Below are positions 25,719 through 32,396 of a DNA stretch of 64,000 nucleotides, piece by piece (the first letter of the stretch is position 1; each line of letters begins with the position of its first letter). Origin of the DNA: Apibacter mensalis (GTDB lineage: Bacteria > Bacteroidota > Bacteroidia > Flavobacteriales > Weeksellaceae); the NCBI RefSeq assembly GCF_001418685.1, contig NZ_LIVM01000008.1, positions 62,001 through 126,000 on the forward strand. The letters run 5' to 3'. The notes beneath the pieces were generated by a model. The model was not told the DNA's origin. It worked only from the letters and a program-made list of their open reading frames with translations, and ran no database searches. The position numbers and the translations under genes are program-made.

Positions 25719-26054
25719 CTATTTTTCGGGAACATATATGACTTCACCATTTTCAAGTTCATAGGCTGTCCCTACTTTTCTTCCTTTTTTATTTGTAGAT
25801 TTTTCTTGAGATGGGATATACTTATTTATTTTATTTCCTTCTTTGGTTAGGATCTCCATATCTTCTTTTCCGGGATTTTTAACAATTGTAAAATCTTCTT
25901 TTGAAAATACTTCACTCATATTTAAATTCATTACCATGGCTACCATGAGGGCAACGGCAAACACCATAGCTACATCAAACAGGTTAACAATTACGCTAAG
26001 TGGATCGGTATCTTCTTCTTTTAAAAACCGGTTAATTCTTCTTGGTCTTTTCAT
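25719..26054 (-). CDS. hmuV: DUF2149-type membrane protein of the heme-uptake (hmu) operon
   Basis: 111 residues with one N-terminal membrane helix (NLFDVAMVFAVALMVAMVMN) preceded by a basic cytoplasmic stretch, then a soluble, Lys-rich C-terminal part. The DTDPLSVIVNLFDVAMVFAVAL segment matches the DUF2149 family as I know it. The layout resembles ExbD (one TM helix plus periplasmic domain), so with the neighbouring ExbB-like protein it may form a proton-driven energiser. The gene symbol follows the Porphyromonas hmuYRSTUV naming by position and type, not by direct alignment. Confidence 0.7.
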   Translation of the reverse strand: MKRPRRINRFLKEEDTDPLSVIVNLFDVAMVFAVALMVAMVMNLNMSEVFSKEDFTIVKNPGKEDMEILTKEGNKINKYIPSQEKSTNKKGRKVGTAYELENGEVIYVPEK

Positions 26055-26063
26055 TATTTACAC

Positions 26064-26660
26064 TTATTTTGCATTACCTGTTACCATGCTTGCTATATAG
26101 TCCAAATTATTAACTTCTTTTGCATACCATCGTTGCTTGACTTGTAAGGTAACCAGCCCAATGGCACTTACTACCAATCCGATTACGGTTGTTGCGAAAA
26201 CTACTTGCATATTATAAGCCATACCTGAGACATCTCCTGTGGAAAGCCCTACTAATGCCGGGCTCATTGCTATCAGTGTACCAATTAAACCTAATACCGG
26301 ACCTAATTTTGCCAGCATTTTAGATAATAAGAGGTCTTTATCAGCCTCATTTTCAAAATTTGAAATTGTGTAATCGGCATAAGCTTCATAGTTTGTATTT
26401 TCTAATAGTGTTCTTAAATATTTTATATATAAAGAGTTATTTTTTTGAGGTAATGTTGCTTGTAAATCTTTCAATTTTTCTTGGGTAAAATTTACAATTA
26501 TCGGATTTATTTTCTTGTCATTTTTTCTTTTTACAATAAATTGATTATAAAAGCTTCCCAATAGAAGTAAAGAGCGAGCGAATAACAGGAGTAATATAAT
26601 GATATCCGGAATTAATAAACTATTCGCTACCCAAAATAATACATTTGATATAATTTCCAT
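26064..26660 (-). CDS. hmuU: MotA/TolQ/ExbB-family proton channel of the hmu operon
   Basis: 198 residues with three hydrophobic segments: an N-terminal one (about 15-40) and two in the C-terminal half. The conserved TolQ/ExbB region is visible as LAKLGPVLGLIGTLIAMSPAL...AYNMQVVFATTVIGLVVSAIGLV. This family conducts protons to drive partner proteins across the envelope. It lies nine bases before the DUF2149 gene. In hmu operons of Bacteroidota such a channel accompanies the HmuS chelatase, which is the context here. Confidence 0.82.
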   Translation of the reverse strand: MEIISNVLFWVANSLLIPDIIILLLLFARSLLLLGSFYNQFIVKRKNDKKINPIIVNFTQEKLKDLQATLPQKNNSLYIKYLRTLLENTNYEAYADYTISNFENEADKDLLLSKMLAKLGPVLGLIGTLIAMSPALVGLSTGDVSGMAYNMQVVFATTVIGLVVSAIGLVTLQVKQRWYAKEVNNLDYIASMVTGNAK

Positions 26661-26709: not shown

Positions 26710-27390
26710 TTATTGGGTTAATTTCCATTTAATTTTATTTCCTATACATCCTACTAGGAAAAACAACAGAAAAAGTCCTGCAGTTAAAAGTATATTTCTA
26801 AAATTAAGGGTTTCATTCGAGGTTTTGTATACAATATTTCCATCAACGGTTATTATTAGTCCAAGAATACAAATGATTAAGCTGACTATAAAATGTATTT
26901 CAAGTCTTAAATCAAAATCAGGAAGGGATTTCTTAATTGCTATGATTGCCAAAACCATAGATAATATAACTGTCGAAGCATAGAGAATTGCCATAGTTAA
27001 AAAATTGAAACCGGTACATGTAAAGGCTGCTTGGGTTAGTCCATAAAACAATACTAAAAACAATAATACCCCGGGGTAATAGTGTAATACTAACCTAAGT
27101 ATCTGATGTTTTTTATTTTCATACCATCCCATTAATACGGCAAAACAAAAAGCAAAAAATAAGCCCGATTCTACTGTAACCAGCACAGAAACGTTTTGCA
27201 TCATAACACTATCAGCTAAAAAATTTTCTATTTGAGTTTTAGATTGTTTAATGGATAAAGGATAAATCCATAATATAAATGCTGTATAAATAAGCAGCAT
27301 TATGCCTATTTGTCTTTTTTTCCAAAAACTCAGCTTAATAATAGCATTTATTAGTATTAAACCCATTAATAATTGTTTGATGAGTTCCAT
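26710..27390 (-). CDS. hmuT: Polytopic membrane protein of the hmu operon
   Basis: About 226 residues with six or seven hydrophobic helices and no soluble domain. I start it at ATG 27390 (MELIKQLLMGLILINAIIKL), 19 bases after hmuS ends; the open frame extends back into hmuS to 27462, but that extension is not hydrophobic or conserved-looking. I do not recognise a named domain with confidence. Its position between hmuS and the ExbB-like gene matches the membrane protein that occupies this slot in other heme-uptake operons, hence the tentative symbol. Confidence 0.6.
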   Translation of the reverse strand: MELIKQLLMGLILINAIIKLSFWKKRQIGIMLLIYTAFILWIYPLSIKQSKTQIENFLADSVMMQNVSVLVTVESGLFFAFCFAVLMGWYENKKHQILRLVLHYYPGVLLFLVLFYGLTQAAFTCTGFNFLTMAILYASTVILSMVLAIIAIKKSLPDFDLRLEIHFIVSLIICILGLIITVDGNIVYKTSNETLNFRNILLTAGLFLLFFLVGCIGNKIKWKLTQ

Positions 27391-27409
27391 AGAATATTCT
27401 TCTTTTATT

Positions 27410-30400
27410 TTAACCGTTTTTTTTTCTTTTCCTGATATATAATGTAAGTGAAAGGACAACAATGCTTATAACTGTGATTAATATAATGCCGTTTACTGCT
27501 GTTTTTTCTGATTTGTTATTACCTCTGAAAACTTCTTCTTTTTTTAGAACCATCCCCTCTTTATTGCTGGATGAAATCTCTCCTATTTTCATTTTAGTTA
27601 TTTGTTGTTTATATTCCGTAGATTGTTGTGGTTCAACTTGAGTTGCAATATAATCTTGTAATTTTTTATTGTTTCCTGAAAAACCTGCCCCGGAATGTCC
27701 GAATTCTTTAACTGTTTGTGTATGTACGAGAGCTGTTTTCTTTAATTGCTCCTTAGTTGCTTTCCACATCCCTTTTCTTGAGGTTTCGAGCATAATTGCT
27801 GTGATCTCTTCTAAAGCTGCCGGGTTAACTTTTTTGAAAAATTCTTTAGTTCCTAAATTCGCTTTATAATTTACATAGGTATCATAAATTTGATTCCACA
27901 TTTCATTATCGATGGCTTCGGGCTTCATTACGTTCCAACCGTACGTATTGGTTATAATCTCTGTTATATCGGCTGCACTGGAGGCTCCTCCTTTCATCTT
28001 TTCTTTAATATATACAGGATTGAAAAGGGTGGTACGTGCTTCTACTCCAATAGCTTCTTTTAATTCCTGCATTTTGAAATTATTATGGTTTCTATAATCA
28101 GCAAAGTACGCAACCGGATCTTTTCCTGTAACGTGGCGAATGGCAAGATTCATTCCTCCCATAAATTCATATACATGATCTAAACTTAAAGCTCCCCAAG
28201 TATTGCTTTGTCTTGGATGAACAACCATATCCGTATTTTTTAATACAGCTTTTAACAATCCTTTGTGAAAATCACCCCAATTTTTATCACTGCCATAAAT
28301 TGCACCCATATTATTGATATAGGTTTCCGCTATTTCTTTTTCATTTTCCCATTTATCTCCGCTGGTCACCATTTCTTGAATTCCTGTTCCATACATTCCA
28401 TTAACTCCGCCAAATATTCGTTGCGTTGAAATTTGGCGAGCTTCTTGCGGAGATACCCCTTCATCTACCAAACTTTTTTCTATATCTGTAGTGCTTTGAG
28501 CAACTAAATTTTCATAGTTGGAATCTTTGGCCGATGCGGCTATTTCTACGGCTCTGGATAGTAACGCTAATCGTGAGGCTGCTAAATCTCTAAACTGTCC
28601 GGAAGTTTGCACCACCACATCGATTCTCGGTCTGCCTAAATTCGCGGATTCTATGAGCTGTAAATCGGATACTCTTCCAAAGGCATCCCAAACCGGTTCA
28701 ACTCCCAGCATATATAAAACCTGTGCTAGGGTTGTTCCTTCACTCTCAATAAATTCACTGCTCCAAAAGGTATAATTAACTTTTTTAGGGTAGGTTCCAT
28801 GACTGGCTTTATATTGTGCTAAGGTTGTATTAACAAGTTCTTTACCTCTCTCCCAAGCTATTTCTGTAGGTGTCGATTCTGCATTTATGGAATATAAGTT
28901 TCTACCGGTTGGCACTCCGTTTGGATTCGCCACTGCATCTCCTCCTGAAGATGGCTCAATATAGCCTCCGGATAGAGCATTGATCAATGCTTCAAATTCC
29001 AATTCGGGACTTTCTTCTAAACTCTTTTTGTATTTTTTTATGTTGGTTATGGTTCTTTCCATTTCTACAATAGCTCTTGCTCTTGATTTTTGCTCTTTGG
29101 TATATACAATCTTTTTATCCGCCATTCCATGCATTGGCTTTTTTTCTGAATCCTTTATAGCAGGATGTGCTGCTGTTTTTGATTGGGTATTTTTAGAAGG
29201 ATCTGAAGAACTAATCGGTATAGAGGGTTTACCGTCTGTGCGTTTATTACTTTTTTTAAACTTTCTTTTCAAAGGAGAAATAATCATTTTAGATTGTTCC
29301 AATTCTTTTTCATCAATTCCGGAAAAATTGCAAATAAATGCAGGGGTCACTTCTCTCCCGGATAAGATTTGAGTTACTAAATTTTTGGCAACGTCTAAAT
29401 ATCTCTGTTTAAAGTATACTTTATTTTTTAATTGCTTCTCGGTTACTATTCCTCTTTGCTTATCTAAGGCTGCTAAGCTATAGGCGATCGGATCTGTACT
29501 CATAGCCTGTACGGATGATATGATTTGGTCTTTTGTATAAGGTATTCCGGATGTATAGAGATGTCCGGACATTTTCTCATTGGAAATTTCTTCAGCAAAA
29601 TTTTCAATTCTTTCTATTTCCTCTAAATTATAAGGTTGAGTTAATATACTATCTAAACGTAAATCTCTATGCAGTCCTATTTTTACCGCTATTTTTTTTA
29701 CTTCCAAAGATATTGCGGGTTGATTGATTTCATCGGTTTTATAGTAATTTTGTATCTTATCTTGCAATTCTTTAAATTGTGAACAGGTCTGATTTTCCAT
29801 AAATGCAGGAGTTAAATAAGATATTAGGGTGGCATAAGAGCGTCTTTTAGCCATCATACTTTCACCTATATTTCCTATGGTATAATAGTAGAAGTGAGGT
29901 AACGTGCCCACTAATCTGTCCGGCCAATCCTCATTGCTTAAGGCGACTTGTTTTTGCGGTGTAAACTCAAGGCTTCCATGTGTCCCAAAATGGATAAGAG
30001 CATCTGCTCGGAAACCATGCTGTACCCAAAGGTATGAGCCTATATAGGTATGAGGAGGTGCTGTTTTTTCTCCATGTATTATAGCAAAGGTATCACCTCC
30101 CAATCCGGCCATGGGTTGCGGCAACAAAACAATATTTCCGAATTGAATTCGAGAAATTGCCAGATAGGAATTTTCTTTTACTTTTTTACTCATATAATTG
30201 CCCGGTGCTTCATCATAAACCGCAGTTACTTCAGCATACTTTTCTGGTGTAAGTGTATTTTTAATCCAGCTTTCATAGGTATGTTTATCGATCAACTCCG
30301 GATTACCCTTTTTTAAAAATTCATCAAAGGCTCCTTGGGCATAGGTACTCATTACTGAGCCCTGTGTCATCAACAATCGTTCAAAATCTCGTTCATTTTC

Positions 30401-30535
30401 AGGTAATTTCTCAACTTTATACCCTTCTTTTTTCAACCGTTTTAAAAAATTATAAAGTGAAGGCACCGTTTCTAATCCTTGAGCGGTTAATGATTCTTTA
30501 CCGGGACCTTTATAATAGTAGATAGCTAGTTTTAA
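27410..30535 (-). pseudogene. hmuS: HmuS (CobN/BchH-like heme chelatase), 5'-truncated
   Basis: The minus-strand frame encodes about 1040 residues of a CobN/HmuS-type chelatase and ends with a membrane anchor (IILITVISIVVLSLTLYI) and a basic tail, the arrangement of periplasm-facing HmuS rather than cytoplasmic cobaltochelatase CobN. Homology begins abruptly with KLAIYYYKGPG at about 30535; the usual start codon, signal peptide and roughly the first quarter of the protein are absent. The best remaining start would be GTG 30466 (VPSLYNFLKRLK). No internal frameshift or stop interrupts the 3 kb, so the damage looks recent. Conserved HGSLEFTPQKQ and VHPRQSNTWGALSLDHVYEF segments are present. HmuS proteins act on heme; cobalamin synthesis is unlikely here. 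Confidence 0.8.
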
Positions 30536-30542
30536 TACGAAA

Positions 30543-31340
30543 TTTGATAATCAGTATTCTTATTCACTTGCCATGAAATATCAATTATCGCCAAACTCCA
30601 ATTTTCGTACGGAAATAACTTCTACTAACAGAACTCCAAATTTTGATGAATTATATACTTATTTTGTAGATACCAATCACAATATACAAGGTAATGAGAA
30701 TTTACTTCCTGAAAAAGGATATTCCAGCTCTGTCTATTGGAATCAAAAATTCAAATTTAAAGATAATTGTAAAGGAGAGATTACCTTAAGCACTTTGTAT
30801 ATTAATTTAAAAGACAAAATTGAATTGGCAACAGTCAATATCCAGCCCTTAGAATACAAATATTTGAATGTGGATAAGTTCAAAAGATGGGGGATACAGT
30901 TCAATTCTAATTTGAAAATACATAATTTGCATTTTAACCTTAATGCCTCTTATTTTGGAGTTTCACGAACATTAGAAGATAACATTAAGGGAATTCATAT
31001 TGCAAGGCCTGACAATGATTACTTGTATACCTTCCATTTAAACTCAAATGTTAATTATACAAGTAAAAAATGGAAAAGAATCTTCATATGTGTTAAATTC
31101 TAAAACGGATTCCTATTATCTGGGAAAACAAGATGATTTTGATTTACTTGATTTTTCAGTAAGAAAAACATTGTTTAACAAATTTATGAACTTACGGCAG
31201 GTGTAAGAAATATTTTTGACGTTAAAAAAGTAAATACGACAGCAGCAAAAGCAGGAGCTCATGAAGGACCGGTGAGAGGTATAAATTTATTTTATGGCAG
31301 GTCCTACTTCACTAAACTTGGTTTTAATTTTAATATTTAA
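30543..31340 (+). pseudogene. hmuR: HmuR-like TonB-dependent heme receptor, 5'-truncated and frameshifted
   Basis: Only the last ~266 codons of a TonB-dependent receptor remain. It starts at FDNQYSYSLAMKYQL and continues with the barrel signature RTPNFDELYTYF. Near 31074-31077 the frame shifts (an extra A in an AAAA run gives a stop at 31101); at about 31183-31185 a missing T restores the original frame, from YELTAGVRNIFDV to the final KLGFNFNI and TAA 31338. The plug domain, TonB box, signal peptide and promoter are missing. hmuY starts on the next base after the stop, showing that this was the hmuRY operon. Confidence 0.85.
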
Positions 31341-32396
31341 ATGATGAAAAAATATTTTTCACCTATACTAATTTCTTTTTTTATAATCTTAAGTTGTAAA
31401 GAAGATGATAGTCCTATATATGTACCCCAACCTGGAGCAACTTTAGATATTCCTGTAGGAGGACCCACTGAGCCTAATCAGGTTTGGGTAGATTTAGATC
31501 AATGCACAGTTAATGTAAATCAACGGGATTCTTGGGATTTTGGTTTTTATTTTGATGAAAATTTTCGTGTTATTTTGAATAATTCAACAGGGATGGCAGC
31601 AGGAAAATTAAATTCAACTAATATCGATGAGGTTAAAGAATCCGATATCGCTTCCTTAAAATCTGTAGTAACGGTCGGTAATTTTCAAGCTGATAATGTA
31701 CAATATGTTGATGATATTATGGGAAATTACTTGGAACGAACAGCCATCGATGAAATAAGAAAAAAAGACGAAGAAAACCATGTTTATCTTGTTAACATGG
31801 GATATTTTGTATTTAATGGCAATACAAATGATTTAACGGTTATAGGAGATCATAGAGGTTGGAAAAAAATTAGAATTCTTCGTAATGATTTTAATAGTTA
31901 TAAAATTCAATATGCAGATATTTCCGATATTACACATAAAGAAGTGATTGTAAAAAAGAATAAGGGTTATCATTTTTCATATGTAAGCTTATCCGGAGGT
32001 ATGATAAAAGTCCAACCTCCTAAAAAGTTATGGGATATGTGCTTTACTGTTTTCATTAATGAAAACAAAGGGCATGGTACCTATACCTTCGCAGATTTTA
32101 TAACTATTAATACCATGAGCAACACAGGCGCCTATCAAGCAAATATATCAGAGGTGGGTAGTTATGAAGATTTTACCAAGGAAAAAGTAGATTTTACTAA
32201 ATTCGTATATAATGACCAAAGAGTCATTGGTTCAAGCTGGAGAACTACTTATGGTGGTGCTAAGGTATATACGGATCGGTTTTACGTTCTTAAGGATTCA
32301 AAAGGTAATTTATTTAAGCTTAAATTTATAAATATGACTGATAAGAACGGACATAGAGGATACCCGAAATTAGAATATAAAATACTTACTAATTAA
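31341..32396 (+). CDS. hmuY: HmuY-family heme-binding lipoprotein
   Basis: 351 residues. The N-terminus MMKKYFSPILISFFIILSC is a lipoprotein signal with a Cys lipobox. The C-terminal half carries the HmuY features: VWVDL...RDSWDFGF near the start of the mature domain and, at the end, DRFYVLKDSKGNLFKLKF followed by GHRGYPKLEYKIL. HmuY proteins are outer membrane hemophores that hand heme to HmuR. This gene is intact but sits directly behind a wrecked receptor and has lost its normal upstream promoter, so expression is uncertain. It is longer than P. gingivalis HmuY (about 216 residues), as in many flavobacterial relatives. Confidence 0.85.
   Translation: MMKKYFSPILISFFIILSCKEDDSPIYVPQPGATLDIPVGGPTEPNQVWVDLDQCTVNVNQRDSWDFGFYFDENFRVILNNSTGMAAGKLNSTNIDEVKESDIASLKSVVTVGNFQADNVQYVDDIMGNYLERTAIDEIRKKDEENHVYLVNMGYFVFNGNTNDLTVIGDHRGWKKIRILRNDFNSYKIQYADISDITHKEVIVKKNKGYHFSYVSLSGGMIKVQPPKKLWDMCFTVFINENKGHGTYTFADFITINTMSNTGAYQANISEVGSYEDFTKEKVDFTKFVYNDQRVIGSSWRTTYGGAKVYTDRFYVLKDSKGNLFKLKFINMTDKNGHRGYPKLEYKILTN

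Follow-up and report, generated by a model that had tools for sequence, protein, structure and literature searches.

The closest described counterpart of the locus analyzed here is the hmuYRSTUV operon of two other members of the Bacteroidota, Porphyromonas gingivalis and Bacteroides thetaiotaomicron. The known HmuS acts at the periplasmic side, with its N-terminal part present (PMC12583661). Apibacter mensalis carries the same six genes in the expected families, i.e., HmuY, a TonB-dependent receptor (HmuR), a CobN-like HmuS, HmuT, a MotA/ExbB-like HmuU and a DUF2149 protein, HmuV. Unlike the operon of P. gingivalis and B. thetaiotaomicron, the Apibacter locus is arranged as two divergent operons, hmuRY and hmuSTUV, and it differs further from hmuYRSTUV of other Bacteroidota in that the first genes of both operons are truncated in this genome.

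We analyzed a window of 64,000 nucleotides (contig C8, positions 62001-126000) from the draft assembly of this organism, which comprises 2.33 Mb in 42 contigs and is 99.99% complete. The original prediction was that a single deletion had removed the divergent promoter region together with the 5' ends of hmuS and hmuR. Apibacter congeners (designated G001-G008, one genome per species) were used for comparison, and two of these, G008 and G004, stand for the ancestor as proxies only. Both flanks of the hmu locus are collinear with G008 and G004 by tblastn.

Truncated hmuS and hmuR and the junction between them

The remnant of hmuS, encoding the CobN-like heme de-chelatase, occupies 27410..30528 on the minus strand and was identified by tblastn and by PF02514 (profile positions 279-1090 of 1090). 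When HmuS of G008 was compared with the window by tblastn, the match began only at residue 367 and ran from 30532 down to 27416 on the minus strand with 88% identity. Thus, of the N-terminal membrane anchor, head and catalytic body that make up HmuS, the body is present and about 367 N-terminal codons are absent. The remaining 1038 codons are open, with no frameshift or stop, and the HFGTHG motif of the chelatase body is retained, in agreement with the original description of hmuS as otherwise undamaged over 3 kb.

The remnant of hmuR, encoding the TonB-dependent heme receptor, lies on the plus strand at 30524..31340 (tblastn and nucleotide alignment). HmuR of G008 matched only from residue 441, at 30525 to 31337 with 76% identity. 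The intact G008 gene encodes both a plug and a beta-barrel; only a C-terminal part of the barrel is left here, and it is frameshifted, as nucleotide alignment revealed two more frame-breaking deletions, of 35 bp after 31071 and of 1 bp after 31186. Relative to G008, codons 1 to about 367 of hmuS and 1 to about 440 of hmuR are therefore gone. The beheading of both genes had been recognized from the beginning, but these two further indels in hmuR had been missed.

Base-level comparison with G008 and G004 showed that native hmuS sequence (minus strand) extends to 30528 and native hmuR sequence (plus strand) starts at 30524, with 0 bp between them and no filler. The junction itself, 30524..30528 (assigned to neither strand), is a 5-bp microhomology, AGCTA, common to the hmuS and hmuR sides. 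Homology had initially been placed as ending at about 30535 for hmuS and about 30543 for hmuR; the near-zero gap was correct, but the positions move slightly to the left. AGCTA is found at the hmuR site in G004 and at the hmuS site in G008, whose hmuR site reads AGCCA. Among random breakpoint pairs drawn over the same G008 genes, at least 5 matching bases occurred in about 0.8%, which argues that the microhomology is a trace of end joining rather than a chance fit. A short shared run with nothing inserted, an ancestral arrangement that is intact in relatives and the absence of the deleted sequence from the genome characterize a single-event microhomology deletion, and all of them are observed at this locus.

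The other four genes are present and open, with lengths about equal to those of the congeners, so that the description of hmuTUV and hmuY as complete is borne out. hmuY, encoding a hemophore-like lipoprotein (31341..32396, plus strand; PF14064, 7.3e-19), directly follows hmuR, and its 351-residue product has the same length as in G008. On the minus strand are hmuT (26710..27399, within an open reading frame at 26710-27462; 228-232 residues in congeners), whose upper bound is approximate because the native start was deduced from the MELI... start of the congeners; hmuU, encoding a MotA/TolQ/ExbB-like protein (26064..26660; PF01618, 1e-10; 198 residues, as in G008 and G004); and the DUF2149 gene hmuV (25719..26054; PF09919, 6.1e-34; 111 residues, as in G008 and G004).

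The missing stretch and the locus in other Apibacter species

Compared with G008, 3,820 bp are missing. They comprise the first 367 or so codons of hmuS, the gene for a 413-residue protein, an intergenic region of about 110 bp and the first 440 or so codons of hmuR. The protein of 413 residues is secreted and carries a type IX secretion sorting tail (PF18962); its N-terminal part has no counterpart in Pfam. Its gene is located between hmuS and hmuR in G008 (L010:12467-13708) and G001 (L013:6368-7609), its 3' part is found at a contig end in G006, and it does not occur in G004 and G007, in which hmuR and hmuS are spaced by about 0.6 kb and 0.3 kb, respectively. A search for traces of this gene in the hmuS-hmuR intergenic regions of G004, G007 and G002 detected nothing above noise; a 33-residue match in the G004 region (E=0.10) is unreliable. 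Since only some congeners have the gene, the size of the deletion in A. mensalis is roughly 3 to 3.8 kb, and it may have included this third gene.

hmuS and hmuR are intact and divergent, head to head, in the same neighborhood in G008, G004, G001 and G007. The clean 5-bp join and the absence of the 5' parts elsewhere in the assembly also favor the predicted single deletion, and we consider it very probable that one event, about 3 to 3.8 kb in size and sealed at AGCTA, took the divergent region and both 5' ends and that the locus has decayed since. Such a deletion would have excised the DNA that separates hmuSTUV from hmuRY and clipped the leading gene of both operons at its 5' end, presumably by illegitimate recombination. 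HmuS lacks the membrane anchor or signal at its N terminus, together with the head region, and HmuR lacks the signal peptide, the plug domain and the initial segment of the barrel. As hmuY directly follows hmuR and hmuTUV follow hmuS, the expected promoter region of both operons would be gone as well. A Bacteroidota-type promoter pattern, TTTG...TANNTTTG, had 0 occurrences at the junction, but it also had 0 in the intact G008 locus and fewer in the window than expected by chance, so that its absence from the junction carries no weight. Judged from these sequences, the heme-uptake locus is almost certainly dead. Ferrochelatase and FeoB families were found in this genome, and their presence is compatible with living without heme uptake.

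Four species of the genus have a complete hmu locus, and in one draft (G006) it is spread over contigs, with hmuS in pieces. In two species only hmuRY is left, in another the locus was not found, and in A. mensalis it is broken. The two species with hmuRY only are G002 (L045:8047-11272) and G003 (L046:8205-11433), in which hmuR is intact and hmuS and the DUF2149 gene hmuV are absent. In G002, hmuRY lies between clpC and folD, the site of the whole locus in other species, and therefore hmuSTUV was lost there (or was never there). G003 carries hmuRY in a different neighborhood. In G002, hmuY is followed by a DUF6607 gene (L045:11300-12199), and the other species have none at that site. In G005, a fragmented draft, genome-wide searches for hmuR, hmuS, hmuV and ferrochelatase gave no match; heme synthesis and the hmu uptake route may both have disappeared from this species, or the draft may be incomplete. 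It is conceivable, as a speculative reading of this distribution, that the genus sheds heme-iron harvest repeatedly and in varied orders, and that hmuRY without HmuS may serve otherwise, e.g., in whole-heme import.

Relaxed selection and alternative histories

Nonsynonymous and synonymous changes were counted by parsimony on this lineage and compared with those on the G008 branch, G004 serving as the outgroup; dS is high (about 0.8), and the counts are hence rough. Nonsynonymous/synonymous changes were 76/95 here versus 60/139 on the G008 branch in hmuS (p=0.005), and 21/34 versus 6/36 in hmuR (p=0.012). For hmuTUVY pooled they were 92/118 versus 52/109 (p=0.025), and none of hmuT, hmuU, hmuV and hmuY was significant singly. 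The corresponding counts for five flanking genes were 87/221 and 83/249 (p=0.37). Selection on the hmu genes is relaxed on this branch, and selection on the flanking genes is not. The remaining hmu genes are decaying, and hmuR is the furthest advanced.

If the neutral nonsynonymous/synonymous ratio is assumed to be 2.5-3.5, the relaxed fraction of the branch is 0.12-0.18 for hmuS and 0.14-0.19 for hmuR, both with wide intervals. The two times are alike and are therefore compatible with one event. Very roughly, the time since the loss amounts to 10-20% of the branch that began at the divergence from G008. The loss is recent, but not immediate, because the pooled hmu genes show excess nonsynonymous change and the flanking genes show none. 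The event had been called recent at the outset, which is right relative to species divergence but needs correcting in view of the two extra hmuR indels and the relaxed selection.

The most serious competitor of the single deletion is a stepwise loss, which began with damage to hmuR (and perhaps to the intergenic gene) and ended with the removal of both heads by one or more later deletions. At least two successive deletions would give an identical junction, and separate loss of parts of the locus is demonstrated by G002 and G003. Moreover, hmuR has two indels in about 0.8 kb, and the hmuS remnant, about 4 times longer (about 3.1 kb), has none, a distribution expected by chance in about 4% of cases if all indels postdate the deletion. 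Against such a sequence of events, the relaxation times of hmuS and hmuR are similar, with the wide intervals noted, and a single event accounts for the junction more simply. We regard stepwise loss as possible but distinctly less likely.

An assembly error, in which the assembler skipped about 3-4 kb and both genes are intact in the organism, is very improbable. The genome is a draft of 42 contigs, examined as assembled sequence, but the only repeat found at the junction measures 5 bp, a length far below what could confuse an assembler, and the 3-4 kb were not left on any other contig. A skipped stretch also yields neither independent frameshifts in hmuR nor relaxed selection, and both are seen at this locus. 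It is equally doubtful, to a high degree, that the shortened HmuS (about 1018-1038 open codons) is retained as a working cytoplasmic protein: its 1038 codons without frameshift or stop and the HFGTHG of the catalytic body would suit this role, but nonsynonymous change is significantly raised on this branch, the partner receptor gene hmuR is dead, and the N-terminal anchor and head, present in the known periplasmic-side HmuS (PMC12583661), are gone. Finally, an inversion, which the original prediction had allowed, or a translocation that moved the 5' parts elsewhere in the chromosome would equally leave two truncated genes at one breakpoint, but it is hardly credible, as the flanks are collinear with those of G008 and G004, and searches of the whole 99.99%-complete assembly for the HmuS N-terminus, the HmuR N-terminus and the 413-residue protein gene returned distant paralogues only, such that only contig gaps could hide them.

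Comparison with known forms of gene loss

The deletion and subsequent decay provide a datable snapshot of a heme-acquisition locus under loss in an insect-associated group whose members retain differing amounts of it. The series of species offers a natural way to ask when HmuS-type release of iron from heme becomes dispensable. A search of the literature available for this analysis found no account of hmu loss in Apibacter, and a scan of genome contigs revealed no second strain with the hmuS/hmuR junction. The type of event is already known, and the locus represents ordinary gene loss caught part-way. It resembles bacterial pseudogenes formed by microhomology deletion in its clean, filler-free join of a few shared bases and in the small indels and relaxed selection that came afterwards, and the sole difference from such pseudogenes is that the deletion happened to hit the first genes of two operons.
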